Assembly (NCBI GenBank): GCA_003157075.1
Contig: PMIL01000298.1
Span: forward strand, 1-37,996
From: Bacteroidales bacterium
GTDB taxonomy: Bacteria; Bacteroidota; Bacteroidia; Bacteroidales; VadinHA17
Reading direction: 5' to 3'
DNA: 37,996 bases
Made by a program: the position numbers and the translations under genes. Under the pieces are notes generated by a model that was not told the origin of the DNA, made no database searches, and saw nothing but the letters and a program-made list of their open reading frames with translations. Position 1 is the first letter of the stretch. Each line of letters opens with the position of its first letter. Below, in pieces: positions 17,626 through 37,719 of the stretch.

Positions 17626-17693
17626 ACTAGCAATCTTAATATAAATTAATTAGTAGCGAATCTCAATTGCGGACCATTTTAAATTACTCAATT

Positions 17694-21150: not shown

Positions 21151-23550
21151 ATGAAAAACCTGACTTGGATTTTGCTAATGCTTCTGGAATCGGTGCAGAT
21201 TTCTTACTGCCAATATGCTCTTGTCAGTCATTCGGGTGATGCGAGTGTAAGTTATGATAAGAACTCGTCTGAATGGAAACTTGAGACAAAACAGATTACT
21301 CAGGTACTCAAACTGTCTGACGGGATTTTTTTCCTTAAGCAGTTCAAAAATAATTTCACTGGTACTGATTTTGTCGGTAAAGCTATATCCGATGAATTCC
21401 GTTTTGTATTGGATAATAAGCTTTTTACAGGAACAAGAGGCAGTTATAATCTCGTTTCTTATTCCACAGGGATATTGCCTGTTCCCCGTACTGCGCCGGA
21501 AATAAATCCAGGCATCTGGCTTGAAATCATTTTACGAAATGAGTTTTTTACAATCAGGTTCAATTACCAGGTATTCGCCAGTTCTCCTAATACACCAATG
21601 GGTATGGTCAGAAAATATTATACTGTAACCAATACTACCTCTGCAACTGAAGAACTTTCTGACATTTCAATGCATCTGATGGATATTGATTACAGGGTAG
21701 CCGGGAAGCTCAGACTTCATTACTGGCAGGGCGGAGGTGCATTTAAGAATTGCAACCACGAATTTGTAGATTCCCTTTCATGGGCGAGCCATACCTTTCA
21801 TTCTGATGCTGGTGCAAATGATTATCGTGTTGATGATAATTACAGCGGTTCCTCATCATTTCACCCCTATTTTGTGCTGCAACATGATTCCGGAGAAGGA
21901 ATATTCTTCGGGTTTAATTACCTGGGGCCATGGTCAATGAAATTCTGGTCCGACCACAGATTTCCCCCTGAAGATTCTGTTAAGTCGTGGGGTCTGCTCA
22001 TGGAAACCCGTCGATACTATTTTATTAATTCTCAACTGGAACAACACCGGCAGATACTTAAACCAGGGGAGTCATTTGAAACTCCCAACAGTTTCACCGG
22101 GGTTTATAAAGGAGATCCCGATAATGCTAATGAACAGCTTCAATACTGGCAGGCTGCATATAAATGGGACTATACAAGGGAAAAATACCTTTTCGGAGGA
22201 AACATGTGGAATGCTAATTGGAACAACCATTCCGCAATGAATAAAACCGGTCTCCACTTTCAACAGGTGTTTGATATTGTAAATAATGCCCGCAGACTTG
22301 GTTACACTATCGCTCATGAAGATGATTTCTGGTTTGATGAACGTGGCCGCGGAGTCTGGGAAGGCGTGAACTGGAAGCCAATAGTTGACTATGCCGGGAA
22401 ATCAGGGATTAGTTTTAAACTATGGATGCCTCCGAATCATTTTGCAAAGAACACACCTAATGATCTTAATCAAAAAGACTTACACCTCGATCCCAAAACA
22501 TCTCCCGGAATCACACTCTGGTATGGATATGGTTATTGCATGGGTTCCGATTCAGCAATCAACTATCTGAAGACTTTCCTCCTGAACCGACAGAACATGT
22601 ATGGCACTTACATAAACAGGTTTGATGGCTGGTTTGAGGCTCCCTGTTATTCTGCCAGTCATAATCATACTCCCGGTCAGCCATTTGTTGCACAGTACCG
22701 CAATACACTAAGACTATTAAAAGAAGTCAAAGATGCAAATCCTTATATGGGAATTGAGGGATGCAACTCAGGCGGAGAATGGGCAAACTGGGATAAGACC
22801 GAATTTCTTGAATCGCAGCAAACCTCTGATGGCGGCGGTGAAGATGATTTCTACCATTTAAGCTATTTCTGGAGTGTCCCAAAGATGATGCTGATTGATG
22901 CTTCGTCAGATGTTAAAGAGAACGATATTCCCAGGCTCAGAGCAGAGATGCTTATGCAAAAATATCTAACAAAAGAAAAAGTGATTGACAGGTATATGAA
23001 CCTCTATCATCCTAAAGCAGAACATGCTGCAACATTACATTGTTTCATAGAGAAAACAAATGCTGACAGGTCAAAATGTGTATTTTCACAGGATGCCTCA
23101 TCAGGAAATAATGTAATTGTATATCCAAAAGCGTTGCAGCCTGAATTGCAATATTCAGTAAGTTTCAGATATGGGAAGGAGACTTATTTAAAAACGGGCA
23201 AGGAACTGATGCAATCAGGAATTGCCTTTCGTGATACATGTGTAACACAGCTGATTTTTCTTAATCTCGATAATTTTCCGGGATCTGGAACTGACAAAAT
23301 TAAGCCTACGCCTCCCTTGATCACTTCTGTTAAAAATGCCACCTTTTGCAATCATGAAGGAGTTGCAATAGAATGGAAGGAGAGTAAGGACAATAACATA
23401 ATTGCAGGCTATAAGATTTATCGTGACAAACAGATGATTGATTTCGTAGCAACAGGGACATTTTATTTTGATCAGTCGGAAGGCAAATCTTCAAAAGCAC
23501 ATTATAAGATTGTGGCAATTGATGGCGATGGAAATACTTCTGAGAAATAG
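21151..23550 (+). CDS. GH36-like (clan GH-D) alpha-galactosidase-type enzyme with C-terminal FN3 domain
   Basis: A 799-residue exported protein (signal peptide ending SYCQ, about residue 21). An N-terminal beta-sandwich (to about 330) precedes a TIM-barrel. Barrel motifs resemble GH36: NMWNANWNNH, TIAHEDDFWFDERG, FKLWMPPNHFAKNTP, the nucleophile-type strand YINRFDGW (Asp492), IEGCNSGGEWANW in place of the ESCxxGGGR motif, and a possible acid/base Asp560 in SQQTSDGG. A fibronectin type III-like domain fills about 705-799. GH36 and relatives cleave alpha-galactosides or alpha-GalNAc. The replaced motifs mean that specificity could differ, and a neighbouring clan GH-D family is possible. It lies 24 bases after the GH105 gene. 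Confidence 0.75.
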   Translation: MKNLTWILLMLLESVQISYCQYALVSHSGDASVSYDKNSSEWKLETKQITQVLKLSDGIFFLKQFKNNFTGTDFVGKAISDEFRFVLDNKLFTGTRGSYNLVSYSTGILPVPRTAPEINPGIWLEIILRNEFFTIRFNYQVFASSPNTPMGMVRKYYTVTNTTSATEELSDISMHLMDIDYRVAGKLRLHYWQGGGAFKNCNHEFVDSLSWASHTFHSDAGANDYRVDDNYSGSSSFHPYFVLQHDSGEGIFFGFNYLGPWSMKFWSDHRFPPEDSVKSWGLLMETRRYYFINSQLEQHRQILKPGESFETPNSFTGVYKGDPDNANEQLQYWQAAYKWDYTREKYLFGGNMWNANWNNHSAMNKTGLHFQQVFDIVNNARRLGYTIAHEDDFWFDERGRGVWEGVNWKPIVDYAGKSGISFKLWMPPNHFAKNTPNDLNQKDLHLDPKTSPGITLWYGYGYCMGSDSAINYLKTFLLNRQNMYGTYINRFDGWFEAPCYSASHNHTPGQPFVAQYRNTLRLLKEVKDANPYMGIEGCNSGGEWANWDKTEFLESQQTSDGGGEDDFYHLSYFWSVPKMMLIDASSDVKENDIPRLRAEMLMQKYLTKEKVIDRYMNLYHPKAEHAATLHCFIEKTNADRSKCVFSQDASSGNNVIVYPKALQPELQYSVSFRYGKETYLKTGKELMQSGIAFRDTCVTQLIFLNLDNFPGSGTDKIKPTPPLITSVKNATFCNHEGVAIEWKESKDNNIIAGYKIYRDKQMIDFVATGTFYFDQSEGKSSKAHYKIVAIDGDGNTSEK

Positions 23551-23659: not shown

Positions 23660-25213
23660 ATGGTTTTTAAGAAGTTTACTATTTCATTATTGTTACTTTT
23701 TTTAATAACTTATCAGATCCGTGCAGATATCAAGCTTCCCAAAATTATCAGCGATAATATGGTGCTTCAGCGTGGATTAAACATTCCGCTTTGGGGCTGG
23801 GCTGATCCAGGTGAGCATATCAGAGCATCGATGGGAAGCCATTCCTCAGATGCAATCGCAAACGCTGACGGAATCTGGAGATTATTCCTTGGGCCATTGG
23901 ATGCAGGTGGTCCTTTTGAACTAATTTTTCGCGGTAAAAATATTGTTACAGTAAAAAATATTCTAATCGGTGAAGTATGGGTTTGTTCCGGTCAGTCAAA
24001 TATGGAAATGCCTGTTGGAAATGTAGCTACCTGGTATTCCGGCGTTCATAATTACAAAGAAGAAATTGTCAGTGCTAATTATCCCCTGATCCGTTTATTT
24101 AAAGAAGACCGGATAGTTTCTGATAAACCACAGCAAGATTGTCAGGGAATATGGTCGCAATGCTCTCCGGAATCTATAGTGGATTTTTCAGCGGTGGCAT
24201 ATTTTTTTGGCAGAAAATTGCACCATGAGCTTGGAGTTCCTATAGGAATTATAGATGCTTCGAACGGCGGAACAAATATTGAAGCATGGATCAGCGAAGT
24301 GATTCTCCATTCAGATCCTGATTTTAAGCCTGCTCTTGATGAATTCCGTCAACAAATGGATGATTATCCTAAGTTGATGAAAGTATATGAACAAAGGATG
24401 GAACAACACAGGAAAGAAGTAGAGGCAGCAAAAGCTACAGGTAAGCCTGTGCCATGGCGTGAACCGATGCCTCCTGCAGGTCCTGGTGACAAGAATACAC
24501 CGGGAGGATTATACAATGGCATGATAGCCCCGTTAATGCATTGTCGGATTGCGGGAGTAATTTGGTATCAGGGAGAGAATAATACGGGAAATCCTCAAAT
24601 GTATGAAAAGTTATTTCCGGCAATGATCAGTAACTGGAGACACGATTGGGGACAAGGAGAATTCCCGTTCTATTATGTACAACTTGCCGGCTTTAATACC
24701 AATCAGACATGGTGGGGCGGTGGAAGTAAGAATTGGGTATTGCTTCGCGAAGCGCAGTTAAAGACCTTATCAGTACCAAATACTGGCATGGCAGTAGCAT
24801 CTGATATTGGTGATGCAAACGATACTCACATGAAAAACAAACAGGAGGTCGGCAGGCGACTCGCCTTATGGGCCCTTGCAAAAACATACGGTAAAAATTT
24901 AGTCTTCTCTGGTCCTGTATACAACTCAATGGAGATCAAAGGTACCAAGGGCATACTACATTTCAATTATATTGGCAGCGGACTTTCAACAAAAGATGAT
25001 TCAACGCTTACAGGCTTTACTATTTCGGGTGCAGATAAGAAATTTTACGATGCTACAGCATCTATCCACGGTGAAATAATAGAAGTCAGCTCGAATGAAG
25101 TTGCAGAACCAGTTGCAGTCCGGTATAGCTGGAAAGACTACTCAGATGCCAATCTGTGCAATAAGGAAGGGCTGCCCGCTTCTCCCTTCAGGACCGATAA
25201 TTGGGATGAATAA
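23660..25213 (+). CDS. Sialate-O-acetylesterase-like (SASA/DUF303) SGNH esterase
   Basis: A 517-residue secreted esterase with a signal peptide ending QIRAD at about residue 23. The catalytic machinery is clear: Ser113 in VCSGQSNMEMPV, the oxyanion block IWYQGENN (301-308), and the Asp388/His390 pair in DTHMKNKQEVGRRLAL. In most relatives the last motif reads D.HP.NK, so Met replaces Pro here. The N-terminal LPKIISDNMVLQRG is the usual start of the mature domain. Such enzymes remove acetyl groups from sialic acids or from plant polysaccharides. The GH33 gene in the same run makes acetylated sialic acid or a related sugar a plausible substrate. It closes the plus-strand run after a 109-base gap; its stop is one base from the opposing gene's stop. 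Confidence 0.87.
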   Translation: MVFKKFTISLLLLFLITYQIRADIKLPKIISDNMVLQRGLNIPLWGWADPGEHIRASMGSHSSDAIANADGIWRLFLGPLDAGGPFELIFRGKNIVTVKNILIGEVWVCSGQSNMEMPVGNVATWYSGVHNYKEEIVSANYPLIRLFKEDRIVSDKPQQDCQGIWSQCSPESIVDFSAVAYFFGRKLHHELGVPIGIIDASNGGTNIEAWISEVILHSDPDFKPALDEFRQQMDDYPKLMKVYEQRMEQHRKEVEAAKATGKPVPWREPMPPAGPGDKNTPGGLYNGMIAPLMHCRIAGVIWYQGENNTGNPQMYEKLFPAMISNWRHDWGQGEFPFYYVQLAGFNTNQTWWGGGSKNWVLLREAQLKTLSVPNTGMAVASDIGDANDTHMKNKQEVGRRLALWALAKTYGKNLVFSGPVYNSMEIKGTKGILHFNYIGSGLSTKDDSTLTGFTISGADKKFYDATASIHGEIIEVSSNEVAEPVAVRYSWKDYSDANLCNKEGLPASPFRTDNWDE

Positions 25214-25214
25214 T

Positions 25215-26567
25215 TTACAGCACCATACCCCACCCTTTTTCGTATTCACGGCTCCATAAACCCATTGCCTTATTATCATTCAGGATATGTCCGTTTGACG
25301 GATCAATTTCAAGTGAATGACCAACTCTCTGAGCTATATTTCCTAGTTGAACAAGTAAGGTGCTCTTATGACCGGAATCGATATCTGCATTGAGCTTTTC
25401 ACCGGTTCTGATTGCATTCAGGAAATTACTGATATGGGGAATGTCGAGAAGGTCACCCGGACCAACCTTATTCAATGGATTAACGGTGACTGTATCTTTC
25501 ACTTCTTTAGTTACCTTTCCTTTCAGATCATAAACTGTGTATTCATTACCGGATCCAATCATAAGGCTTCCTTTTTCGCCATAGAATACCACTCCTACAG
25601 GTGCACCTTCCACAGGTTTTCCGTTACAGCTTCTTCCTTCCCATGTCAGGCTTGCATCCCCTGGAAAATCCAGACTGATTATTTGTGTATCAGGAGTTTC
25701 CCAATCATCCTTGAATTGATATCTGCCTCCGTTTGAGCTGACTCGTACCGGATAATTTAATCCCATGCCCCAGCGCAACAGATCGACCATATGGGTACCG
25801 TTATTGAGAGCTTCTCCTGTACCCCAGTGCCAGAACCAGTGCCAGTTATAGTGAACCACATTGTCTTTGAAATCCTTCCTGGGCGCAGGTCCCTGCCACA
25901 ATTCCCAGTTTAACCATTCCGGTACAGATGCAACCTTTCCGATACCAATTGACTCTCTTGTATTCGTATACCAGCCCTTACCAAGATATACACGTCCGAT
26001 TGCACCAGCCTTGAGTTCGCCGATCGCCATAATAATGTTAGTCCACGACCTTCTCTGATCCCCCATCTGAACCTTTTTCCCATATTTAATGGCTGCCTGA
26101 GTCAGTATTTCACCTTCATGGGGGTTATGACTGCAGGGTTTTTCGACATACACATTTTTACCTGCTTTTAATGCCATAAGAGCAGCCGGTGCATGCCAAT
26201 GATCCGGAGCTGCAATAACTACAGCATCCAGGTCTTTATCCTCAAGAGATTTACGTATGTCAGAAAATCCCTTTGGTTTGTTATTTCCAATCTCCTGAAC
26301 CTTTGCAACCGTTTTTTCTATTACTCTTGAGTCCACATCGCAGATATGTATCACTGAACAGTTCGGTTGACGGGAAAAATTCTCAGCATGTGCAAATCCC
26401 CTTGAATTTGCTCCCATAACACAAACATTTACTCGATCATTTGAACCTATGATCTTCTTATAACTTTTAGAGCTGAGAACAGGAAACATGCCACTCGCAT
26501 ACAAGGCTGCAGAACCGGTAACAGTTTTTTTTATAAATTCTCTTCTTGAATTTCCTGAACTTTTCAT
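25215..26567 (-). CDS. Tat-exported Gfo/Idh/MocA-family oxidoreductase (GH109-like)
   Basis: A 450-residue protein with a twin-arginine signal (SRREFIKK, RR at 8-9, followed by a hydrophobic stretch to about 31). A Rossmann fold follows: VNVCVMGANSRG (about 47-57), CDVD at 76-79, and the sugar-dehydrogenase motif EKP at 142-144 (VEKPCSHNPH). The C-terminal domain has the HYNWHWFWHWGTGEALNNG block typical of exported Bacteroidota members, some of which are GH109 alpha-N-acetylgalactosaminidases using bound NAD. Others oxidise the C3 hydroxyl of glycosides for later cleavage by DUF1080 proteins. Either role would fit here. The gene is monocistronic by spacing, with 306 bases upstream to the next gene. 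Confidence 0.85.
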   Translation of the reverse strand: MKSSGNSRREFIKKTVTGSAALYASGMFPVLSSKSYKKIIGSNDRVNVCVMGANSRGFAHAENFSRQPNCSVIHICDVDSRVIEKTVAKVQEIGNNKPKGFSDIRKSLEDKDLDAVVIAAPDHWHAPAALMALKAGKNVYVEKPCSHNPHEGEILTQAAIKYGKKVQMGDQRRSWTNIIMAIGELKAGAIGRVYLGKGWYTNTRESIGIGKVASVPEWLNWELWQGPAPRKDFKDNVVHYNWHWFWHWGTGEALNNGTHMVDLLRWGMGLNYPVRVSSNGGRYQFKDDWETPDTQIISLDFPGDASLTWEGRSCNGKPVEGAPVGVVFYGEKGSLMIGSGNEYTVYDLKGKVTKEVKDTVTVNPLNKVGPGDLLDIPHISNFLNAIRTGEKLNADIDSGHKSTLLVQLGNIAQRVGHSLEIDPSNGHILNDNKAMGLWSREYEKGWGMVL

Positions 26568-26873: not shown

Positions 26874-28595
26874 TTAATCATCAATATAGATCTCATTTTC
26901 TGCCTGTAATATTTCTCCCTTATCGGATATTCCTACAACTTTAACAATAAATTTGCCTTTAATATCTCCGGTATAAAATTGTACCACAGCTTCTCCGGAT
27001 TTCTCTGCACTTACAGATGGATCCCAGTAAAGAAGATATCTGAAATCGGGAATTCTAATCTGTGAAGCGGGTGTTGAATAATCGGGCGATAAAATTTTCC
27101 ATTCGCTTACGTCAGCCATTGGATAAATGAACCTGTTCATATTCGGGAGAAGAGGTACACTGTTAAAATCCGATTTTTTTGTATGTATATCTATGATTCC
27201 CCCGAAGGTAAAATCCTTACAATAGTAGGTAGCAGGAATGATAGCTATCCGGTCAATTTCCCGGATAGGTATTTTAGCTATCTCAGCAAAACTGTCATAA
27301 AGAATCCCATCAATGAAAATTCCGGGTTTATCCTCAAGATAACTCATTGTGACCGGATCAAAAATCATTATTTCAGCTCCGCCCTTTCTGCCTGAGAATT
27401 TAACCGACGGAACAAGTTCATATAAATATTCCCGGAGGGAGTCAAGGTTTATATAATTTTTTAATTCAAGAAGATCATAAGGTTTTGTATAAAAAACACT
27501 GCTATCCTTTTTGGTTTTGATCTGAGGTTTTTTTATTGAATACGATTTTTTGAATCTGGCCTGAACCTGATAATTAATAAACTTCTCTTTAAGGTATGAA
27601 ACAGCTTGCTGATCAAGACTAAAACGCAGGTTATCAGGCGGATCTCTAAAACCATTCCAGAATGACTCCTCCAGACTTGATTTTGTCTCACTTCCCGGCA
27701 GGATAACTACCATTTCCTGTTCACCTTCACCGGGTTTTAAAAGAAAATTAAAAACGCCTGAATCATCGGTAACACATCCTTTCAGATCTGTGCCCGGTCC
27801 CGGTGTGGAAACTGTAATTGAGGCGTTTGAAACAGCATTCCCCAAAGGATCAACAAGTTTACCTGACATCCTTATTCCTTTATAATCAGGCAGGTATTCT
27901 ATATTTTCAGAGATACTAAGTATTCCTTCCTTATTGTTCTTTCCTAAAGAATAAATCATCTCCGGTTCTTTCCGGCAGACAGAAACTGAAAAATCACCTG
28001 ATAGTTTTTCTCCTGATATACCTTTTAATGAAATTGTTAAAGTTACATGATCGCGTGTTGAATATTTTTTCTTGTCGGGTATTACCTTTAACAGATCTGT
28101 TCCGGCTGCAATATCATGACTATAGATTACTGGTTTTAAAGAATCCCTGATGCTTCCGGGATAAGTATACTTACGATCAGGATTTATAATGGAAATCTCT
28201 TTCCTGAAGAATGATCCTTCTCCAAAATTTTTCATCCAGTTAGTGTAGGAAATGATATAATACAAACCGGTTGGAAGGTTGTCAGGAATTTCAAATTCAC
28301 CGGAACCCGTGCCATGTTTTAACAGAACCTTTTTCCTCAGGATTGAATTATTTTCGCTGCTGACCAGTTCAATAAAAGCAAGAGTGCTGAATTGTTCCCA
28401 GGGGATCATCGAAGAGGTGCAAAAGGTTTTAAACCACAATACTTCGCCTGTGAAACAGCTCTCCTGAGAAAGGTGGACCTCAATTTTTTCCTGAGGGCAT
28501 AGAATGGAAGGTTTTCCCGTATTCTGACCTGAGAGATTACTCTTTAAAAGAATAAGCAGTGAGATGAGAATAATTATTTTGATTTTCAGTAGCAT
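26874..28595 (-). CDS. Exported MG2-like protein with a barrel-less TonB-receptor plug domain
   Basis: A 573-residue protein with a signal peptide ending NLSGQ at about residue 24. Residues about 36-140 look like an alpha-2-macroglobulin MG2 domain (LSQESCFTGEVLWFKTF, IPDNLPTGLYYIISYTNWM). Residues about 241-300 form a carboxypeptidase-regulatory-like domain (MSGKLVDPLGNAVSNASITV, DDSGVFNF). Residues about 385-475 match the TonB-receptor plug (PGIFIDGILYDSF, IPIREIDRIAII, FGGIIDIHTKK). No beta-barrel follows; the last 100 residues are another beta-rich domain. It is the last gene of the minus-strand run, 6 bases after a DUF4249 gene, so it probably works with the receptor at 29780-32518. Function is not known. 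Confidence 0.7.
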   Translation of the reverse strand: MLLKIKIIILISLLILLKSNLSGQNTGKPSILCPQEKIEVHLSQESCFTGEVLWFKTFCTSSMIPWEQFSTLAFIELVSSENNSILRKKVLLKHGTGSGEFEIPDNLPTGLYYIISYTNWMKNFGEGSFFRKEISIINPDRKYTYPGSIRDSLKPVIYSHDIAAGTDLLKVIPDKKKYSTRDHVTLTISLKGISGEKLSGDFSVSVCRKEPEMIYSLGKNNKEGILSISENIEYLPDYKGIRMSGKLVDPLGNAVSNASITVSTPGPGTDLKGCVTDDSGVFNFLLKPGEGEQEMVVILPGSETKSSLEESFWNGFRDPPDNLRFSLDQQAVSYLKEKFINYQVQARFKKSYSIKKPQIKTKKDSSVFYTKPYDLLELKNYINLDSLREYLYELVPSVKFSGRKGGAEIMIFDPVTMSYLEDKPGIFIDGILYDSFAEIAKIPIREIDRIAIIPATYYCKDFTFGGIIDIHTKKSDFNSVPLLPNMNRFIYPMADVSEWKILSPDYSTPASQIRIPDFRYLLYWDPSVSAEKSGEAVVQFYTGDIKGKFIVKVVGISDKGEILQAENEIYIDD

Positions 28596-28601
28596 AACTT
28601 C

Positions 28602-29780
28602 CTATTTCCAAAAAACGGGTTTAACATTTGTACCGTAAGTACGGCAATCTGCACAATAATCAGCGCTACAATAAACTTTTATGTCCGTTCCTTTAATTGT
28701 ACCAAAGTAACTTTTCGGTATCCATGAAGGCAGACCGTAGTCAAAATATGAGCAGCCTTTATAGGCACTTACAGTCTCAACATTATGCTGGGTTCGATCA
28801 ATAAACAGCCTTTTTTCTTTAACCGCTGAGGCTGAGAAATAACCAAGAGCATTGGAAGATCCGTCACAAGATTTAATATTGCCATAAACCTGTGCTGGTA
28901 TTTTACCATAAATGCCGGCAAGATTCTCATTCGCGTCCATCAGCTGTTTCCAGAATGTGTATAGTTCTTTACTGATTGATGATTGTTTAACCAGAATGCT
29001 ATACCTTATGTTAAGTTTGTCCTCACCTGGTCCTAACGAACATATGTTAAACTTTCTGATCTCATCTAATGAATTGTTTGTTGTGCTTGTTACAAGTACT
29101 GAAGTGGAGGGCTTTGTTACCCAGCATATTTTTTTTTCATCATCTATAGTTACATTTTCAAACGTGAAGGAAGGTGGCTCCTGGCTATAAAACACTTTAA
29201 CATGATCGGTTAACATCATCACCTCCCAGGTCTCCTCAAACTCAAAACTCCAATATTGGGTCTTACCGTCCGGGTCATGTGAATTCACCAGAATATTCAA
29301 CCAATTTTGTAAAGAAACCTGTCCTTCTGCAATTTTTGTATTTTCAACCTCTTCAAAATAGAGACTGTCAATATCCGGAACTTCCTGCATCAACACAGGA
29401 GAGGATTCATATTGTATCCCTTCTTTTGTAGTTATAGTCAGGGTATAAGAATTGCCAGGAATTCCCTTTAGATCTTTATCTTCTGTTTCGTACCACCCGC
29501 TGTCATCTCCATTCAAAAGAAATGAGTTTCCTTTATCATCAATGATACGAACATCAGCATCCAATACGGGAACCACATAATACATAACATTTATCGGAAC
29601 TGATGTTGTAAGTTTCACTCTGAAAGGACCAACTTCATTAGTGATCTGACCTGCTACAACCAGAGAAGCTGCAGAGTCAGAATTTTTCAATGCAGGACTG
29701 ATCGGTTCCAGACAGGATTCAACTGGCAGTATTAAACAGGCCAAAAGTATTAATTTACTTATTTTATACTTGCAAGTCAT
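28602..29780 (-). CDS. DUF4249 lipoprotein (copy 1)
   Basis: A 392-residue lipoprotein (lipobox PVESC, Cys23) of the DUF4249 family. Family landmarks are SAASLVVAGQITNEVGPFRVKL near the N-terminus, ESSPVLMQEVPDIDSLYFEEV, the central GEDKLNIRYSILVKQSSISKE, and a C-terminal CADCRTYGTNVKPVFW. Its start ATG overlaps the receptor's stop by one base (TAATG), suggesting translational coupling. DUF4249 lipoproteins commonly sit beside TonB-dependent receptors without a SusD, so a surface-exposed lid or binding partner is a reasonable guess; the function is not established. Two paralogs lie upstream in the same run. Confidence 0.85.
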   Translation of the reverse strand: MTCKYKISKLILLACLILPVESCLEPISPALKNSDSAASLVVAGQITNEVGPFRVKLTTSVPINVMYYVVPVLDADVRIIDDKGNSFLLNGDDSGWYETEDKDLKGIPGNSYTLTITTKEGIQYESSPVLMQEVPDIDSLYFEEVENTKIAEGQVSLQNWLNILVNSHDPDGKTQYWSFEFEETWEVMMLTDHVKVFYSQEPPSFTFENVTIDDEKKICWVTKPSTSVLVTSTTNNSLDEIRKFNICSLGPGEDKLNIRYSILVKQSSISKELYTFWKQLMDANENLAGIYGKIPAQVYGNIKSCDGSSNALGYFSASAVKEKRLFIDRTQHNVETVSAYKGCSYFDYGLPSWIPKSYFGTIKGTDIKVYCSADYCADCRTYGTNVKPVFWK

Positions 29781-32518
29781 TAAAACTTAATATTATATGT
29801 TATGGTCGGTATGACAGCACCAAAAATTGACAACTGGTAGGCATCGAACTTTCCCCCCTCGCTTTTAAAATATACCGAATAAGCATTTTTCCGACCAGTA
29901 ACATTGTAAAGAGAAAAAGTCAATGAACTATGCGTCATCTGATTTTTCTTCAAATTGCCATTAACAGTAACTGAGAGATCGGTCCGAAAATAATCTGGTA
30001 TTCTGTACTGATTATATTCCGAGTATTGAAGGAATACCTGATCACCCAATTGATATTTTGCCACCGGGTAAGTAATTGGTCTGCCGGTAGAATAAATAAC
30101 AGCTGCTGAAATAATTAACCTTCTTGATGCTTTGAGGTTGGCCATAACATTCAAACTATGGGGTTTATCATAATTGGCAGGAAAATATGCACCGTTGTTT
30201 ATCAACTCTTCCGAAAATTTTGAAACTGATTTAATCAAAGTACGCGAATATGTATAATCAATGCGCCCGTAAATACGGCCTCCGGATTTCTCAAAAGATA
30301 ATTCAAGTCCGTATGACCTTCCTTTCCCGTTCACAATTTCGGTTTCAATATGATCATTTAATAGCAGATCTGCTCCTGCTTTATATTCCTTTATATTGCT
30401 TACAAGCTTGTAAAAGACTTCTGCTGAAACCTGGATTTTGTCTTTATTGAGGCTCTGGAAATAACCTGTTGAAAACTGATGCCCGGTTTCAGGAGATAAA
30501 TATCTGTCGCTGAGTTTCCAGGTATCGGTTGGTGAAATAGCAGTTGTATTTGAAAGCATATGGATATATTGAGCAGTTTTATTATAACTGAATTTCAGAG
30601 AACTGTTTGTACCGGTTGAATAGTTGACAGATAGTCGCCATTCTGGGTTCATATATGTTTTTCCAATACTGTTTTTGCTATTGGATACAGTATCTGTTAT
30701 ATTGTCTGTTGAGTATGGCAATGAGCTGGCATAGATATATTGCTTGCCGGTATTATAAGAAATCAATCCTGAAAGTCTTACCCCTCCCTCGATTTTCAGA
30801 TTACCAGAAATATCAAACTGTGTTCCTGCATAAATGCCATATTCTATTGCCCGGTCATTTGGAGAAGATATTGGCACTATGTTCGAATTATCCAGGACTT
30901 TCCTTTCACCCGGATTAACCGAATAAAAGTTCAGATCAGCACCAAAAACATATTTTACCCTGCTGTCGGATGAATATTCAAAATCATTATTCAACGACAG
31001 ATCGTTTAGCTTGTGGGTTAATATGAAGGATTGATTTGTTGAGTTTCGGTTGGCGATTTCATAATTATATAAACTATAGATCAATGATGTGTTTGATTTC
31101 AGGTTTTCACTGTAAAGATGTTTAAGAGTCAGTGACCCGATCAGGTTATTATAATTGTAAGTAGTATCGCTGTGCAACTGAAATTTATCATTGCTGCTGT
31201 AGAAATTAACCAATAAACTGTTTTTTTCGTTGAGCCACAGATCTAGTTTCGCCTGGATATCATCAAATCCGGCTTTACTCTTATACAGGGAAGGAACTTT
31301 GATTTTAGTCAAAAGCCAGTTAGAGTATGTACTCCTAAAGCTTGTAACAAAGGTAGATTTCTCAGAAAACAATGGACCATCGACATTTACCCTGGCGGAA
31401 ATCGGACTAATCCCGGCTGACCCTGTGACTTTTTCATGATTTCCATCAATGGTATTTATTTCAAAAACAGACGAAATACGACCACCGTATTTTATAGGGA
31501 TGCTTCCTTTATAAAGAGTTGCGTTATCAATGATTTCCGAATTGATGGCAGAAAAATTTCCAAAAAAATGAGAGGGATTATAAATAGTTGCCTGGTCTAT
31601 CAGTATCAGGTTCTCATCAGTATTTCCACCCCGTACGTTGAAACCTGAGGTCCCCTCCCCGACTGTTTGAACGCCCGGAAGGGTAAGTACGCTTTTGATT
31701 ATATCCGGTTCTCCCAATAGTGTCGGAATAGATTTGATGTTAGGGATATCAATTTTTTCCATTCCGAGATAGATCTGTCCAATGGTTCCTTTTCCCTGCC
31801 CGACAATTACCGCATCTTTCAGCAGATTCATCCTGACTTCCATATCAACATCCAGCCTCCCGTCGGAATACAGGTTTATATTACGCTTTGCCGGCTCCAT
31901 TCCTATACATGTAAAAGTAACAGCCTGATTCCCGACAGCCAATACTATTTTATAAAATCCGGTAGCATCGGATGATGCTCCTTTCAGAGTCTCATTTACA
32001 AACACATTTCCACCCGCTATCGGTTCACCTGTCTCATAATTCTTCAGATACCCTGATAATACCGCAGTTTTCGCATTATTATTTCCTGGAATCCCAATAT
32101 TAATTATCCGGTACTGGACCTGATCAAGTTTCTCATGGGTAATCTTCTTTTCGGGCGTGACTGTCTTCTTTTTTTCTTCCTGGAGAATACTCCCGGGGAA
32201 AAGTTCTGATACCGGAACCCCAGGGTAAATAACCACCTGATTGTTATCAGATATATTAAAATTTAAGGATTTATTTTTAAAAATAGTTTCAAGACATTGC
32301 TTAAGGGGCGCTTTATTGAATGTTGCTGTAACTGTAATATCGGTTATGTCCTTATCATCATAGAAAAACTTTACATTGTAATTTTTTTCTACCTCGTTTA
32401 TGAATGATTTTAGCGGAATTTGCCGGGAACTTCCTGTTATAAGTACAGGAAGTTCCTGAGCATTCAACCAGAATACTGAAATAATAATGATCAATATTGA
32501 GATTATTCCTTTTTTCAT
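29780..32518 (-). CDS. TonB-dependent outer-membrane receptor with STN and carboxypeptidase-regulatory domains
   Basis: A 912-residue receptor with a signal peptide ending WLNAQ (about residue 21). Residues about 24-99 are a secretin/TonB short N-terminal (STN) domain (IPLKSFINEVEKNYNVKFFY, APLKQCLETIFKNKSLNF). A Lys/Glu-rich linker follows. Residues about 152-230 are a carboxypeptidase-regulatory-like domain (LSGYLKNYETGEPIAGGNVF). The plug is at about 232-356 (LPGVQTVGEGTSGFNVRGGN, NATLYKGSIPIKYGGRISS), and the barrel runs to the terminal Phe (TYNIKF). STN domains usually signal to an anti-sigma factor, but no sigma or FecR-like gene is in the window. The ligand is unknown, and there is no SusD partner. 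Confidence 0.9.
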   Translation of the reverse strand: MKKGIISILIIIISVFWLNAQELPVLITGSSRQIPLKSFINEVEKNYNVKFFYDDKDITDITVTATFNKAPLKQCLETIFKNKSLNFNISDNNQVVIYPGVPVSELFPGSILQEEKKKTVTPEKKITHEKLDQVQYRIINIGIPGNNNAKTAVLSGYLKNYETGEPIAGGNVFVNETLKGASSDATGFYKIVLAVGNQAVTFTCIGMEPAKRNINLYSDGRLDVDMEVRMNLLKDAVIVGQGKGTIGQIYLGMEKIDIPNIKSIPTLLGEPDIIKSVLTLPGVQTVGEGTSGFNVRGGNTDENLILIDQATIYNPSHFFGNFSAINSEIIDNATLYKGSIPIKYGGRISSVFEINTIDGNHEKVTGSAGISPISARVNVDGPLFSEKSTFVTSFRSTYSNWLLTKIKVPSLYKSKAGFDDIQAKLDLWLNEKNSLLVNFYSSNDKFQLHSDTTYNYNNLIGSLTLKHLYSENLKSNTSLIYSLYNYEIANRNSTNQSFILTHKLNDLSLNNDFEYSSDSRVKYVFGADLNFYSVNPGERKVLDNSNIVPISSPNDRAIEYGIYAGTQFDISGNLKIEGGVRLSGLISYNTGKQYIYASSLPYSTDNITDTVSNSKNSIGKTYMNPEWRLSVNYSTGTNSSLKFSYNKTAQYIHMLSNTTAISPTDTWKLSDRYLSPETGHQFSTGYFQSLNKDKIQVSAEVFYKLVSNIKEYKAGADLLLNDHIETEIVNGKGRSYGLELSFEKSGGRIYGRIDYTYSRTLIKSVSKFSEELINNGAYFPANYDKPHSLNVMANLKASRRLIISAAVIYSTGRPITYPVAKYQLGDQVFLQYSEYNQYRIPDYFRTDLSVTVNGNLKKNQMTHSSLTFSLYNVTGRKNAYSVYFKSEGGKFDAYQLSIFGAVIPTITYNIKF

Positions 32519-32562
32519 ATAATTACTTCAGATCATCATTTCAGCAACAACAGACAATAATA

Positions 32563-33306
32563 TTATTTCAGTCCGTCATAATACCTTAGTACTGAAATGA
32601 TATTATCGGGTTGCTGATTATTGATTTTTATTTTATTTTTCCGGATAAATTTGCTTACTTCCGAACTATGATCTGCCAGCAATTTTATAAATTGTTTTTT
32701 TGAACGGAAACTGTCGAACGCGTTGCCGGTATTTATAAAATATTCGTAAGAGTCGGAATATGTTCCCTGTCCATCAGCAGATTTGACCTCGACAGTTTTA
32801 ACCGGTTTTACATAAAATGTGACCTTCCCGACTGAAGCATTTTCATAAAGAGCCTTATCATGTGTGCCGGCCAGTTCAATATATTCATAAATATGTTTCC
32901 TGTTCCAGACCGTATCGATAAATGAAAATCCCGAGAGATTATCAATACTCAGAACGACGTACTTATCTTTGCCATTTTCAGAATGGAAAACGATCAGTTC
33001 ATTTTTCAATACGTCATAATTCAGGATTATTCCTGTATACTTTGACCCGTTATATAAAATGTCGGCTTTGGGCCAATAGTTTTCCATTAATAACGGACTT
33101 CCCAGGTACTTTTTCTCATATACCCATTTTATGCCATTAATAATATCATTTGAACCGGAATATAGACTGTTCTGATTAATTTTATCAAGACAATTCTGTG
33201 AATAGCCTTTTTCGTTACAAACAATACTGAATAAAATACAAAGACGTAAGAATAAATTTTTCAAATGATCAGATTTTGAAAGTTTAACTACAAATATAGA
33301 TTTCAT
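32563..33306 (-). CDS. Exported protein of unknown function linked to the TonB receptor
   Basis: A 247-residue protein. The N-terminus has a hydrophobic stretch after a charged leader (LKNLFLRLCILFSIVC ... GYSQ), compatible with a long signal peptide ending at about residue 37. The mature part is beta-rich, with PKADILYNGSKYTGIILNYD, then NELIVFHSENGKDKYVVL, and a helical C-terminus (KKQFIKLLADHSSEVSKFIRKNKIKIN ending ISVLRYYDGLK, of which each half is short). I know similar proteins only as hypothetical in Bacteroidota. It sits 44 bases upstream of the receptor and 80 downstream of a DUF4249 gene, so it is likely part of the same functional unit. Confidence 0.65.
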   Translation of the reverse strand: MKSIFVVKLSKSDHLKNLFLRLCILFSIVCNEKGYSQNCLDKINQNSLYSGSNDIINGIKWVYEKKYLGSPLLMENYWPKADILYNGSKYTGIILNYDVLKNELIVFHSENGKDKYVVLSIDNLSGFSFIDTVWNRKHIYEYIELAGTHDKALYENASVGKVTFYVKPVKTVEVKSADGQGTYSDSYEYFINTGNAFDSFRSKKQFIKLLADHSSEVSKFIRKNKIKINNQQPDNIISVLRYYDGLK

Positions 33307-33386
33307 AACGTTATTAACCTAGCAAACAGAACAATTTAACATAATTAAAAACAGTGTAACATTAGATTTTTTGGTTTAAATCTTAA

Positions 33387-34607
33387 TTACCAAAAATCAG
33401 GTTTTACTTTTGTTCCCCTGACCCTGCAATCGGTGCAATAATCCTTATCACTATATACTACCATTATGTTCCCATCCTTATCTATATAGGTACCGTAAAT
33501 GGGGAATACAACTCCAGGTGGCGGAGGGGCTGTTGTCCATCCACAGTTTGGATATCCGTTGCCTCTTTCAAGCTTTGTATCATTATGGTTAATGAAAATC
33601 CGTTTTGAACTGACTGATGAAGCAAAAAAATATCCCAGGGCTTTCTCCCCGTTATTGAGACAGGTTATATTACCTGTTACTTTTCCCGGGATTTTTGAAT
33701 AAATTCCACCTGTCGCTTCTTTGACATCATTCAATATTTTAAAATAATTATTCAATTCCTTGTTTATTGAATACTGTTTTACAAGGATGCTGTATCTGAT
33801 ATTTAGCTTGTCGCCGTCGGGACCAATTGACTGAAGCAGAAAATGGCGGATTTTATTGTCCTGTTTACCGATTGTCGATTCTACAAGGATGTTTTTTGAA
33901 GGTTCGGTGACCCAGCAATGTCTCCTTTCGTCATCAATATTGACCGTCTCTATTGATGGAGGAATTGCCCCTTCACCTCCTCCGTGGTTCACTACAATAT
34001 AGGAAGGCATCTCAAATTCCCAGGTTTCTTCAAATTCCCATTTGAAATAGTGTAGTCCATCACTTGGAGCCTGTGAATTGAGGAGAATATTGAGCCAATT
34101 CTCCATATAGACATTTTCCTCCTCAATATGGGTCTGTTTCACTTCTTCATAAAATACAGAGTCAATAGGTGGCACATCAGGCATCAATTGAAGAGATGAC
34201 TCATATTGATTACCATCTTCAGTTGTTATATGCAGAGTATATATATAGCCAGGTATACCATACAAACATTTGTCTGAAGTTTCGTACCAGCCTTTTTCAA
34301 CATAGTATAGTGGAAAAATATTCCCTTTATCATCGGAGATATGAACAAATGCATTTGTTATCGGATCAAATTTAAGCGTATCCAGACCGGTATAGACAGA
34401 ACCTGATTTTGTAAGTCTGACTTTAAACGGACCGGGTTCGTCGGTTATAGTGCTTTCAACAACAAGCTGGCTCTCCTGATCATGTTTCGAAAGCTCAGGT
34501 CTGAAAGGTTCGATACAGGTGCCAAACGCTAGCATTAAAATAAAAAGTAAAATCAGTAGACAGAATTTGTTTTCCTCACTTTTCACTATCTCTGAAAGGT
34601 TCCTCAT
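33387..34607 (-). CDS. DUF4249 lipoprotein (copy 2)
   Basis: A 406-residue DUF4249 protein. The lipobox is AFGTC (Cys31), preceded by an unusually long polar leader (MRNLSEIVKSEENKF) before the hydrophobic core. Shared family stretches are SQLVVESTITDEPGPFKVRL, DVPPIDSVFYEEV, WEFEETWEFEMP, GDKLNIRYSILVKQYSINKE and a C-terminal CTDCRVRGTKVKPDFW. It differs from the other copies by a Gly/Pro-rich insert (TTAPPPPGVVFP) near the end. It lies 34 bases downstream of copy 3 and 80 upstream of the unknown small exported protein. Confidence 0.83.
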   Translation of the reverse strand: MRNLSEIVKSEENKFCLLILLFILMLAFGTCIEPFRPELSKHDQESQLVVESTITDEPGPFKVRLTKSGSVYTGLDTLKFDPITNAFVHISDDKGNIFPLYYVEKGWYETSDKCLYGIPGYIYTLHITTEDGNQYESSLQLMPDVPPIDSVFYEEVKQTHIEEENVYMENWLNILLNSQAPSDGLHYFKWEFEETWEFEMPSYIVVNHGGGEGAIPPSIETVNIDDERRHCWVTEPSKNILVESTIGKQDNKIRHFLLQSIGPDGDKLNIRYSILVKQYSINKELNNYFKILNDVKEATGGIYSKIPGKVTGNITCLNNGEKALGYFFASSVSSKRIFINHNDTKLERGNGYPNCGWTTAPPPPGVVFPIYGTYIDKDGNIMVVYSDKDYCTDCRVRGTKVKPDFW

Positions 34608-34641
34608 ATCGTTTGATGTTTACAGGTCAGAACCATTTTAA

Positions 34642-35835
34642 TTACCAGAAATCAGGTTTTATATTTGTACCATAAGCACGGCAGTCGACACAATAGTTAT
34701 CATAAATCACCCATAATTTAATATCTGTGTTTAAAATATTCGCAAAATAAATCCAGAATTGAACAATATGCCCGTCAGGATCGGTCAGATAAGTACATAT
34801 ATCATAAGGGCTGACTGTATCAATATGATGATCTGTTGAATTAATAAATATCCTCCTTGTCTTTACCGATGAAGCCAGGAAATATCCCAGCGCTTTTTTA
34901 CTTCCTGAAACAGATTGAATATTTCCATAAACCGGTCCAGGGATAGTACTGTAAATTCCTGGTGCGTCTTCATTAACCTTCTCTAATTGCTTCCAGTAAT
35001 TGTACGATTCCTTATTAAGAGAATATTGCTTTACTAAAATACTATAACGGATATGTAATTTATCCTCTCCCGGCCCTAATGATTGTACAACAAACTTATT
35101 TATTGAATCAACATCAGTATTTACAGTTGAGTGCAGGAGTACCGATGATGATGGTCTGCTCACCCAACAGACTTCTTTCTCAGGGTCAATTACTACATTT
35201 TCTGTGCTATAATATATTTCAGCTGCATTTATATCGGGATTGCCATGTTTAACCCTTACTGTGGTCAACATTTTTATCTCCCAGGTCTCCTCAAATTTCC
35301 AAAACCAGTAATTTGTTTTACCAGCCTGATCATGAGTATCGAGTAAGATATTCAACCAGTTATCCTCATAGGTCAGACCGTTCTCAAACCTTACCTTTTT
35401 CACTTCTGTATAATAAACGCTGTCAATATCAGGCACATCCTGCATTAATTCAGGAGTTGATTCAAAACTGTTACCTTCGGCATCCCTAATCTTTAAAGTA
35501 TAGATGGTTTCAGGATCCCCTTTAAGATTTTTATCTATAGTCTCATACCATCCATTTTGATTATCAACAAGTTGATAACTATTCCCTTTGTTCTCACTTA
35601 TTGTAACTTCTGCACCTTTATAGGGCACCGGGGAGTACAATTTATCTATAGGACCTGATTGTGTCAGATGTACTTTGAACGGGCCAATCTCATCGGTGAT
35701 CATCCCTTCCACAACCAATGAACTCAGGGAATCATTTTTATCAAGCGCAGGAGTGAATTGTTTAATGCATGAAGAAAGAATAAGTATTAAGAAAAATATT
35801 CCCGCAAACCTAAAATATTTAAGCGAAGAGGCCAT
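34642..35835 (-). CDS. DUF4249 lipoprotein (copy 3)
   Basis: A 397-residue lipoprotein (lipobox LILSSC, Cys23). It shares with the other two copies the N-terminal SSLVVEGMITDEIGPFKVHL, the middle DVPDIDSVYYTEV and WKFEETWEIKM, the GEDKLHIRYSILVKQYSLNKE block, and the C-terminal CVDCRAYGTNIKPDFW. By eye copy 1 and copy 3 are closer to each other in the first 120 residues than either is to copy 2. It starts 15 bases after the esterase gene ends and is probably co-transcribed with it. Function is unknown; see copy 1 for the receptor link. Confidence 0.85.
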   Translation of the reverse strand: MASSLKYFRFAGIFFLILILSSCIKQFTPALDKNDSLSSLVVEGMITDEIGPFKVHLTQSGPIDKLYSPVPYKGAEVTISENKGNSYQLVDNQNGWYETIDKNLKGDPETIYTLKIRDAEGNSFESTPELMQDVPDIDSVYYTEVKKVRFENGLTYEDNWLNILLDTHDQAGKTNYWFWKFEETWEIKMLTTVRVKHGNPDINAAEIYYSTENVVIDPEKEVCWVSRPSSSVLLHSTVNTDVDSINKFVVQSLGPGEDKLHIRYSILVKQYSLNKESYNYWKQLEKVNEDAPGIYSTIPGPVYGNIQSVSGSKKALGYFLASSVKTRRIFINSTDHHIDTVSPYDICTYLTDPDGHIVQFWIYFANILNTDIKLWVIYDNYCVDCRAYGTNIKPDFW

Positions 35836-35850
35836 TTCGACCGGTTTATT

Positions 35851-37719
35851 TTATTCTTTTGATGGATCTCCGATAGTGATGGTAAAAGTTCCCCAGGTAA
35901 CATCGCGTCTGATCGCCTGCCAGTCTTTCACTTCATAGCTGGCAAGAAATTTAATTTTGTGACCAGGAGGACAGTCTTTGGAAATGTGGATCAGCGAGGA
36001 GAGAGAATAACCGTCACCCCATTTGTCGGGTTGGATCTCATCATATAACCTTTCGCTGTCAATGTATGGATCGTCATAATATAAATGCAGCCTGTGACTA
36101 CCGTTTGATATCTCATAGATCATTACTGTTTCACCTGGTTCGGCTATATTATTCCCATTGCCGCTTCCGAAAATCTCACTGTCACCGTCGTCTATGCCTA
36201 TTTGTGCAAATTCAGGTACATTATAGTAAACAGGAGCATCAAACTCATCTTTCCAGGTATTTTTTTTGTTATCTGTTATTGAAAGGTTGAATCTTATGCG
36301 GAACGGCGATCCGTCTTTTGTTGGCTTATTCAGAGCAGTCACTCTGAATTCGACTGGTAGCCAAATTAGTTCACCCGAAGCCAGTTTTTCAAGTTCAATT
36401 GTCGGATTGGCTATAGTCACTCCCTCTGTTTGTGTACTGAGTGTTACCTTTATATTTTTGGCATCGGAGCCGCCTCTGTTCAATAGACGAATACCAAGTT
36501 TGCATTCATTTGGCTGTTCGAGGAAAATTCCTTTGTCATTCACTCTGTGTGCAACATAAGTAATTTCATCCGGATCATTTTTTCGAAAAATGCCAATCTG
36601 GTGATACTCGTGATTTACTTTGAAGTTTATTTTTCCTTTATCGTCGCTGGTAACATTCGAAGAGTTTTTTTTGTCCTTTGTTACATTGTAATCAAGCAGG
36701 GTGTAACCAGTTTTTGGACTATAGATCGCAGGCGTTGTCACATTGATCTGCACTCCTGGAATAAGTATGCCGTCGGGCTCCCAGGCTTTTGTACCGATGC
36801 CCATGCCACCCTTTGTAACACCTTTCATATCGATAAAGCCGCGTTTATCGAGGTTGCTTCTTATCTGATATCCCCAAACATCGAAATTCGCATACAGGTC
36901 AGCGTGATGCCATCGCTGTGGATCAGGAAGCGGGTTTTTAAATGATTCTATTACAAAATTAAAGGCATCCCTGAACTGTTCGGGGTTGATCGCATGCCCT
37001 CCTTCATAGGTGTGATAAGTAAAATCCAGTCCGGCTTCACCAAGTGCTCCTTGTATTACTTCCTTATTCAGGTTATGCAGCTCTCCGTTTGTACTATTTG
37101 CAAATGCCAGTTTTACTCCATAGAGGTTTTTAAACATATAACGAACGTGATAGAGGGAATGGTTTGAAGGATAACCGATAAAAAACTCCGGTGATCCCTT
37201 TGAATTATAGGCTGCACCGATCATCTGGGGGTATTTCCCGGCCAGGAAAAACGACATGATACCACCCATGCTGTGACCGATCACCGCCCGGTGTGAACGA
37301 TCGTTCATCGTTCGATATGTACTGTCGATATGACTCACAAGTTCAGGAAAATAATCCTTGAATTGTACCTGGTAATTAATATTGGAATGGTTACCGATGT
37401 TATATGGCCTGAGATCGGAATCCACGGAACGACCGTTCCAGGCAACCAGTATAACTCCGTTATCCTTCACAAGCTGTTCAACGCCAGCAATATCCAGCTG
37501 GTGACTACCAGTATTTCCATGAAAATAATAGATTACCGGATATCGTTTCTGAGTAGTATAGTAATCAGCAGGTAAGAATATCCTGTACGGTTTCTCGTGG
37601 TTGAATACTTTACTGAAATGGATTTTGTCCTCCTGGGAAAATGAAATTGTTGAAATCATGGAAAGAACTAATCCGGCAAATAAAACAAGCTGCAGATTTT
37701 TGCTATGAAGAAAGCTCAT
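35851..37719 (-). CDS. Exported alpha/beta-hydrolase esterase with C-terminal beta-rich domains
   Basis: A 622-residue protein with a signal peptide ending TISFSQ at about residue 29. Residues about 35-275 are an esterase-D-type (PF00756) alpha/beta hydrolase: KRYPVIYYFHG, the nucleophile elbow GHSMGG (Ser150), and a catalytic His candidate His242 in EGGHAINPEQF. The remaining 345 residues are beta-rich and look like Ig- or CARDB-like modules (LGIRLLNRGGSDAKNIKVTL, NNIAEPGETVMIYEISNGS). Relatives include feruloyl and acetyl xylan esterases and siderophore esterases. Being first in the run that holds a TonB receptor, it could process the imported ligand; this is inference. Confidence 0.8.
   Translation of the reverse strand: MSFLHSKNLQLVLFAGLVLSMISTISFSQEDKIHFSKVFNHEKPYRIFLPADYYTTQKRYPVIYYFHGNTGSHQLDIAGVEQLVKDNGVILVAWNGRSVDSDLRPYNIGNHSNINYQVQFKDYFPELVSHIDSTYRTMNDRSHRAVIGHSMGGIMSFFLAGKYPQMIGAAYNSKGSPEFFIGYPSNHSLYHVRYMFKNLYGVKLAFANSTNGELHNLNKEVIQGALGEAGLDFTYHTYEGGHAINPEQFRDAFNFVIESFKNPLPDPQRWHHADLYANFDVWGYQIRSNLDKRGFIDMKGVTKGGMGIGTKAWEPDGILIPGVQINVTTPAIYSPKTGYTLLDYNVTKDKKNSSNVTSDDKGKINFKVNHEYHQIGIFRKNDPDEITYVAHRVNDKGIFLEQPNECKLGIRLLNRGGSDAKNIKVTLSTQTEGVTIANPTIELEKLASGELIWLPVEFRVTALNKPTKDGSPFRIRFNLSITDNKKNTWKDEFDAPVYYNVPEFAQIGIDDGDSEIFGSGNGNNIAEPGETVMIYEISNGSHRLHLYYDDPYIDSERLYDEIQPDKWGDGYSLSSLIHISKDCPPGHKIKFLASYEVKDWQAIRRDVTWGTFTITIGDPSKE

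Follow-up and report, generated by a model that had tools for sequence, protein, structure and literature searches.

A conserved four-gene module of an STN-type TonB receptor, DUF4249 lipoproteins and a macroglobulin-like plug protein: a candidate lidded importer of Bacteroidota

This study concerns a predicted four-gene operon on the minus strand of a 37,996-nucleotide stretch of DNA from a Bacteroidales bacterium (assembly GCA_003157075.1, contig PMIL01000298.1, positions 1 to 37,996 of the forward strand), hereafter called the window. Judging from sequence comparisons, the core unit is an operon of the order SP, a small exported protein; a TonB-dependent receptor with an STN domain; one or more DUF4249 lipoproteins, here called lids; and MGP, a macroglobulin-like protein with an inserted CarboxypepD-plug pair. 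The module is widespread in Bacteroidota, occurs three times in this genome and is no one-off. Its predicted products are a plugged STN receptor, an adjoining DUF4249 protein with a lipobox cysteine, an exported SP and an MGP, and the four genes travel together. With moderate confidence, we propose that the module may be a TonB-powered lidded ("pedal-bin") importer with exchangeable lids, in which the receptor STN domain would work with a periplasmic MGP instead of an anti-sigma factor. We infer the STN-MGP partnership from co-occurrence and architecture.

Results

Conservation and spread of the module

Gene maps covered 40 order-level regions, 20 own-genus regions and 78 named loci. The arrangement SP-receptor-DUF4249-MGP was mapped in Bacteroidales metagenome-assembled genomes, Draconibacterium, Hymenobacter, Pontibacter, Pedobacter, Mucilaginibacter, Niastella, Spirosoma, Flagellimonas and others. 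Only MGP genes with at least 5.5 kb of upstream sequence were counted (21 of 82 and 16 of 40 MGP genes were dropped). In these sets, which were picked by similarity to MGP or SP, overlap in organisms and reflect the operon-linked subfamily and not all MG-plug proteins, MGP had SP, receptor and DUF4249 genes all at most 7.5 kb away in 58 of 61 named, 22 of 24 order-level and 24 of 25 own-genus cases. Counted by itself, SP was found within this distance for 60 of the 61 named MGP genes. The plain order SP-receptor-lid(s)-MGP, with no further member of the four families nearby, was kept in 46/61 named and 16/24 order-level cases; the other loci had tandem modules, divergent arrangements, SP behind MGP (one named, four order-level) or missing members. 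The median gaps within the module were 2-10 bases, with start codons set mechanically. Pairwise-distance correlations in 37 single-lid loci were 0.955 for receptor and MGP, the tightest of the six pairs, 0.915 for receptor and lid, and 0.86 for receptor and SP.

Six DUF4249 genes were counted in the own genome. They are spread over four loci, and all four members of the module are present at three of these: the window, a second contig with all genes on a single strand (C349), and a third in which SP-receptor is divergent from DUF4249-MGP (C264). The fourth locus is a plain receptor-DUF4249 pair.

An earlier note on the window, made by a model from the letters and a list of open reading frames (ORFs), had described a seven-gene unit. 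The seven minus-strand ORFs and their gaps of 15, 34, 80, 44, -1 and 6 bases were recovered, and Pfam agreed on the esterase, the three DUF4249 proteins and the STN receptor, all above cut-off; the "small exported unknown" is the 247-residue SP, which lacks any Pfam match. The unit of seven as such was not supported. The conserved unit has four genes, no relative of the esterase was found at another MGP module among the loci examined, and the three DUF4249 genes are predicted local duplicates. The note had named a lack of conserved gene order in relatives among the findings that would refute it; the order of the four core genes is conserved.

Architecture of MGP and SP

The earlier label of an MG2-plug protein finds no backing from Pfam on the window's own 573-residue MGP, which gives only a sub-threshold CarboxypepD_reg match, and is backed by the family profile, by relatives and by hhalign. 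A profile of 36 MGP relatives matched both the SusC plug (E 2.4e-6) and complement C3 (E 1e-4). Pfam searches of these 36 members at E 0.01 found MG2 in 28 and Plug in 4. By hhalign, the MGP insert aligns over 204 columns with the CarboxypepD-plug of the receptor encoded in the operon, the two domains keeping their order (probability 96.8, E 2.5e-10). The family profile and this alignment support the earlier suggestion that the last gene adds a second, barrel-less plug.

The AlphaFold2 model of MGP had a mean pLDDT of 79.7, and its best matches in the PDB were alpha-2-macroglobulin (A2M) and complement proteins (Foldseek E 1.2e-11). VIA-align of model residues 34-573 against A2M/complement gave Z 16.6 and a root-mean-square deviation (rmsd) of 2.7 with 205 aligned. 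C5 chains of ~640 residues, which we take to be the beta chain, aligned to MGP 33-213 only, ending at C5 residue 611; longer C5 chains aligned to MGP ~28-573, most of them ending at 821. With the domain borders of C3, C5 and A2M as we assume them to be, MGP 169-208 and 521-572 would be the two halves of an MG6 domain. The C-terminal segment matched a profile of Bacteroidota A2M, built from 15 of 18 A2M matches (L248, L249 and L252 left out), with probability 90.3, E 1.5e-6 and 33% identity over 58 columns. In the same comparison, four controls with DUF4249 and SP families gave probabilities below 1%. MGP ends at the second MG6 half, so that no thioester domain follows. These profiles and models indicate a macroglobulin-like frame for MGP, made up of MG2 and a split MG6, whose bait-region slot is filled by a CarboxypepD-plug pair of the receptor type. 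The position of the insert in MG6 is that of the bait region in A2M and of the anaphylatoxin domain in complement.

Long MG-plug proteins (770-956 aa) with no DUF4249 in the region were seen at L253-L264 and L267-L270; they point to a large family of barrel-less plugs.

The SP model reached a mean pLDDT of 87.4. Nothing convincing was found for its fold among PDB structures (best Foldseek E 0.14, best VIA-align Z 2.9), which does not imply a novel fold, and Pfam assigned no family to 33 SP members, one of which had a single weak match. Both MGP and SP were considered as FecR relatives and rejected by hhalign, at probabilities of 0.3 and 0.2, respectively, the latter with a sequence profile.

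The receptor STN domain and its partner genes

STN domains bind FecR-type anti-sigma factors according to passages of PMC11637429 and PMC7782687. The STN of the module is related to the FecR C-terminus (hhalign probability 95.2, E 2.7e-8). The family of the C-terminal 22-strand barrel, PF00593, was not matched in the window receptor and was matched in a relative of the same class (L277).

We determined which genes accompany STN receptors in two samples anchored on DUF4249 (PF14054, curated cut-off 28.5 bits), a family found in 130 of the 198 genomes that sampled the phylum (above the cut-off in 125). Both samples were numbered by hand among the matches listed, with the own genome and weaker DUF4249 matches left out; the first took every fourth match. 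In the first 36 regions, a receptor stood in the same-strand run in 33 cases (8 with MGP and 25 without) and in none of the other three (L199, L211, L227). Counting neighbours on either strand, 13 of 34 receptors had STN, and all of these had MGP/SP (10) or FecR (3) within three genes. The remaining 21 were without STN, and 19 had neither partner, the exceptions being L217 with an opposite-strand MG gene and L232 with FecR. The rule had been set down in writing by the time it was tested on the holdout, 36 further regions from the same list examined with the same models and same-strand neighbours only. Here, nine of 31 receptors had STN (eight with MGP, one with FecR) and 22 did not; 21 of the latter had neither partner, the exception, L298, having MGP. 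A more sensitive scan detected STN-like sequence in L232 (E 0.014) and L298 (E 0.0081). After this correction and the removal of one duplicate, the 64 distinct receptors fell into STN with MGP (18), STN with FecR (5), and no STN with no partner (41). FecR was found beside none of the 18 distinct MGP-class receptors of both samples.

Receptors outside 700-1000 aa were left out of these counts, for example L300 and L301, truncated STN receptors of 521 and 653 aa beside FecR, as were the broken L226 and the holdout regions without a receptor (L272, L273, L282, L288, L303). A hidden STN in the long N-termini of L214, L296 and L302 was rejected by eye, these being likely over-extended start codons.

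On a FastTree phylogeny of the last 640 receptor residues (midpoint rooted), the MGP-class receptors lie in one group of 19 (support 0.863), and FecR-linked receptors lie at four separate places. The STN-partner pattern takes 6 changes by parsimony, vs. at least 15 in 500 label shuffles. The sole other member of the group of 19 is the receptor at L274:4549-6948; no STN, SP or MGP was found in its region, a possible joint loss.

At four loci with both MGP and STN (L209, L277, L283, L298), no SP was detected even by a relaxed search, which makes MGP a likelier STN partner than SP. SP is fast-evolving (mean identity 25.5%) and could have escaped detection in these loci.

In the MGP-anchored sets, FecR was found within three genes of a receptor only in L081, next to an additional receptor of the FecR type; it was farther off in L065, L128 and L171. 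A FecR-type and an MGP-type DUF4249 receptor system adjoin in L081, which lends itself to a comparison of the two. DUF4249 systems of a second kind, in which the STN receptor has FecR as its neighbour, were seen in L207, L228, L230, L232 and L299.

The DUF4249 lipoproteins

The cysteine at the lipobox position was invariant in 31 aligned DUF4249 sequences. The earlier proposal that DUF4249 takes the SusD position of an outer-membrane receptor system is supported by 33 of 36 sampled genes, which have a TonB receptor in their same-strand run, and no SusD match was found among the module proteins by Pfam at E 1. Most of the 25 sampled genes with a receptor and no MGP form a simple pair. Anchor lengths were 365-408 aa with MGP vs. 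265-351 aa with a receptor and no MGP, save two of 389 and 408 aa. A search by sequence found no solved DUF4249 relative.

The three DUF4249 proteins of the window share 47-53% identity with one another and at most 42% with any outside sequence, and form one clade (support 0.875). This pattern indicates that their genes are local duplicates. Clade-forming arrays of lids beside a single receptor were also found in L104 (5), L120 (3), L125 (5), L171 (3), L174 (2), L180 (3), L185 (2), L190 (2), L194 (2) and L208 (2). By tree and gene maps, there are at least 11 such one-receptor arrays of 2-5 copies with the window included, at clade supports of 0.824-1.0. Other multi-lid loci, e.g., L176, L183, L195, L196 and L200, form no clade of their own. 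In the named set, at least two lids lie directly upstream of 12 of the 61 MGP genes. For seven recent lid pairs from L104, L120, L190 and L196, picked for high identity, nonsynonymous divergence (dN) was 0.06-0.18 vs. a synonymous divergence (dS) of 0.28-0.87. Since dN is well below dS, these copies are held under constraint.

Discussion

Proposed mechanism and alternatives

We propose that DUF4249 sits outside as a lid and captures the ligand, which would then be passed into the receptor under TonB power, with the pedal-bin model of SusCD as a parallel. A single receptor could be served by several lids, each an exchangeable cap that captures ligand. In the periplasm, the receptor STN, freed from sigma-factor signalling, would work with MGP, which may sense or gate the TonB-driven movement of the receptor plug with no sigma pathway, and SP may be a further periplasmic helper. 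More tentatively, and on the doubtful side, the module may represent a third kind of STN receptor system, in which MGP would act mechanically as the partner of the receptor plug, by sensing it, gating it or changing places with it, and in which one receptor would have an array of interchangeable DUF4249 lids differing in ligand. If the proposal is true, STN domains gain a role outside sigma-factor signalling, and the function of barrel-less plugs becomes directly testable. In addition, natural one-receptor/many-lid systems would separate the role of the lid (ligand choice) from that of the barrel (transport).

Several observations weigh against the lidded importer. As for the STN rule, the exceptions L232 and L298 were removed only after being seen, and Pfam calls STN in neither (a weak FecR_C match in L298, none in L232). 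The holdout has the same source list as the first sample, and the two have genomes in common. Fisher tests applied to the first-pass STN calls (1.1e-7 and 5e-7) overstate the rule because the receptors are related, phylogenetic independence having been checked and found not to be given; the pattern amounts to about six changes on the tree, not 64 independent cases. Some nodes of this tree are weak (0.015 for the group of L232, and 0.59-0.60 inside the group with L274). For the MGP architecture, Foldseek TM-scores over the whole chain were low (0.14-0.24), the first MG6 half matched A2M weakly, in the right order (probability 19, E 0.0012), and MG2 was not recovered against A2M fragments (probability 2). 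Some MG-plug proteins have no DUF4249 beside them: when 18 further regions were chosen by hand among long MG-type matches, 16 were of this kind and two held the module, and L067 and L094 also belong here. The plug thus needs no neighbouring receptor gene. For the lids, dS is saturated among the window's own copies, hence the constraint figure covers other loci only. Finally, an acidic surface-export signal, counted as at least two D/E at +2 to +5, is scarce in MGP-class lids, with 12 of 117 (those with a recognisable lipobox out of 183) vs. 11 of 20 in loci without MGP. This scarcity weakens, and does not exclude, a placement of the putative lid at the cell surface.

The last point bears on an alternative in which the DUF4249 proteins would not be lids but binding proteins of the surface or periplasm that act independently, the arrays would be redundant copies, and the module would serve assembly or export, not import. 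The few MGP-class copies with the acidic signal fit it, as do the failure to find a solved DUF4249 relative by sequence and the finding that no catabolic neighbour recurs across the phylum. However, most sampled DUF4249 genes share their same-strand run with a receptor, passages of PMC11003636 independently propose that transporter and DUF4249 protein function jointly, and dN is well below dS for recent copies from four loci; we regard this explanation as improbable. A somewhat better candidate, still unlikely in our estimation, is that MGP would be a periplasmic protease trap or envelope guard derived from bacterial alpha-2-macroglobulin, its link to the receptor being one of shared regulation only. 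Its best structural matches, A2M and complement at Z up to 16.6, and the MG-plug genes that lack a neighbouring DUF4249 module agree with such a role. MGP nevertheless has no thioester domain, it carries at the place of the bait region a CarboxypepD-plug related to that of the receptor, and of all six pairs in the module it is the receptor and MGP whose distances correlate most tightly.

A third possibility is classical cell-surface signalling, in which STN would bind a FecR encoded elsewhere, e.g., in the SusCD cluster upstream of the module, leaving MGP and SP as accessories. Passages of PMC11637429 describe the known anti-sigma role of STN domains, and FecR-like and ECF-sigma-like (extracytoplasmic function) genes, as named from their translations, stand with SusCD upstream on the same strand. 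Yet the upstream SusC seems, from its translation, to own an STN-like N-terminus, nearly all MGP-class receptors retain STN without FecR beside them, and the MGP-anchored sets offer the single locus L081 with FecR within three genes of the receptor. This account, too, has little probability in our judgement.

Comparison with known systems

The earlier note knew of no characterised system with this layout. This does not hold for the receptor-DUF4249 partnership, since a joint function of a TonB transporter and a DUF4249 protein has been proposed for BT2172/BT2173 in passages of PMC11003636. The title of a preprint by Price et al., as cited in PMC11003636, speaks of lids. Like the BT2172/BT2173 type as outlined in those passages, the module encodes a receptor and a DUF4249 protein side by side, but it adds STN, SP and MGP, and its lids are longer and number up to five. 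The sampled receptor-DUF4249 loci without MGP have mostly shorter DUF4249 proteins (265-351 aa) and, FecR-linked ones aside, receptors without STN.

In the pedal-bin model of SusCD, passages of PMC7782687 describe a TonB receptor with a CarboxypepD-like N-terminal domain and a lipoprotein thought to be a lid. The module receptor likewise has a CarboxypepD-like N-terminal domain and a presumed lid lipoprotein, whereas the module has no SusD family match, carries SP and MGP in addition, and is accompanied by a SusD-like gene only in a separate upstream cluster. With FoxA/FecA-type signalling receptors, which work with a FecR-like anti-sigma factor, the module receptor shares an STN domain, but sigma and anti-sigma genes are absent from the module and MGP and SP occupy that place. 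MGP shares MG2-like and split MG6-like domains with alpha-2-macroglobulin and complement C3/C5; in contrast to these, it is much shorter, ends after MG6, and has a CarboxypepD-plug pair as its insert.

In the open-licence PMC literature that we searched, we found no description of the four-gene module, the plug-bearing macroglobulin or the STN-partner rule, and no paper combining a macroglobulin with the plug of a TonB-dependent receptor. The only paper found to name DUF4249 (PMC11003636) treats, in the passages concerned, the receptor-DUF4249 pair alone, though the module is widespread. The pair is thus already known as a proposal, and the MGP architecture, the STN-partner rule and the tandem lids beside one receptor appear to be new.

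Features and surroundings of the module in the window

Table 1. Predicted genes and domains of the module and its flanking genes, with positions in the window.
Feature	Coordinates	Strand	Evidence
Exported esterase, 622 aa	35851..37719	-	PF00756 59.3 bits (cut-off 22)
DUF4249 lipoprotein (lid), extra copy 1, 397 aa	34642..35835	-	PF14054 127.5 bits; in one clade with the two remaining window lids
DUF4249 lipoprotein (lid), extra copy 2, 406 aa	33387..34607	-	PF14054 122.2 bits; same clade as the other two
SP, small exported protein, 247 aa	32563..33306	-	No Pfam match; conserved near MGP
TonB-dependent receptor, 912 aa: STN, CarboxypepD_reg, plug, presumed barrel	29780..32518	-	PF07660, PF13715, PF07715
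Receptor STN domain, residues 33-99	32222..32422	-	PF07660 29.4 bits (cut-off 28.4); FecR_C 36.4 bits
Receptor CarboxypepD_reg domain, residues 154-231	31826..32059	-	PF13715 44.4 bits
Receptor plug domain, residues 275-347	31478..31696	-	PF07715 34.4 bits (cut-off 23.9)
DUF4249 lipoprotein (lid), 392 aa, conserved slot between receptor and MGP	28602..29780	-	PF14054 130.1 bits
MGP, macroglobulin-like protein with inserted CarboxypepD-plug, 573 aa	26874..28595	-	Family profile, model, hhalign
MG2-like domain of MGP, ~residues 34-137	28185..28496	-	Family profile vs. complement C3 E 1e-4; model and VIA-align
MG6-like domain of MGP, first half, residues 169-208	27972..28091	-	Model strands; C5 alignment; weak A2M profile match
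CarboxypepD_reg inserted in MGP, ~residues 241-313	27657..27875	-	Pfam (sub-threshold), hhalign
Barrel-less plug inserted in MGP, ~residues 374-492	27120..27476	-	Family profile, hhalign
MG6-like domain of MGP, second half, residues 521-572	26880..27035	-	Bacteroidota A2M profile match

Among the loci examined, the esterase had two weak matches (L215, L231), neither of them in an MGP locus. It was rejected as a member of the module and is apparently a passenger. Predicted promoters and terminators in the window were uninformative (44 found vs. 44.7 in shuffles, and 11 vs. 8.5 with a standard deviation of 3.0).

The earlier note had seen no SusD and no sigma or anti-sigma gene. This is correct inside the window, but on the same contig and strand such genes begin 712 bases past the start of the esterase. 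SusD, SusC, FecR, DUF5009 and ECF-sigma-like genes, named from their translations and without a Pfam search, lie past the window end of 37996, at L015:7939-15974 (contig C189). This cluster and the module are ~0.7 kb apart; the gap holds a short run of Ns, beside which the window stops.

Glycoside-type genes sometimes adjoin the module, mainly in the own genus (L061, L101, L107, L136, L156 and window 25215-26567): alpha-L-fucosidase, 3-keto-disaccharide hydrolase, xylose-isomerase-like and Gfo/Idh/MocA genes. One tested module neighbour was an alpha-L-fucosidase. A 3-keto-disaccharide-hydrolase-, xylose-isomerase- or Gfo/Idh-like gene was nearby in 9 of 23 own-genus loci, and in 1 of 40 and 10 of 78 loci of the other sets. 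Unrelated neighbours elsewhere include DNA polymerase I and UvrD helicase, and no catabolic gene recurred across the phylum among the sampled module neighbours. Since the glycoside-type genes are rarer outside the own genus and unrelated neighbours occur, deducing the substrate from neighbouring genes was rejected, and no substrate is claimed.

On the plus strand of the window, three long ORFs (13643-15553, 17667-19895 and 21151-23550), without a Pfam match at E 1e-5, adjoin a SASA-type carbohydrate-esterase gene (23660-25213).

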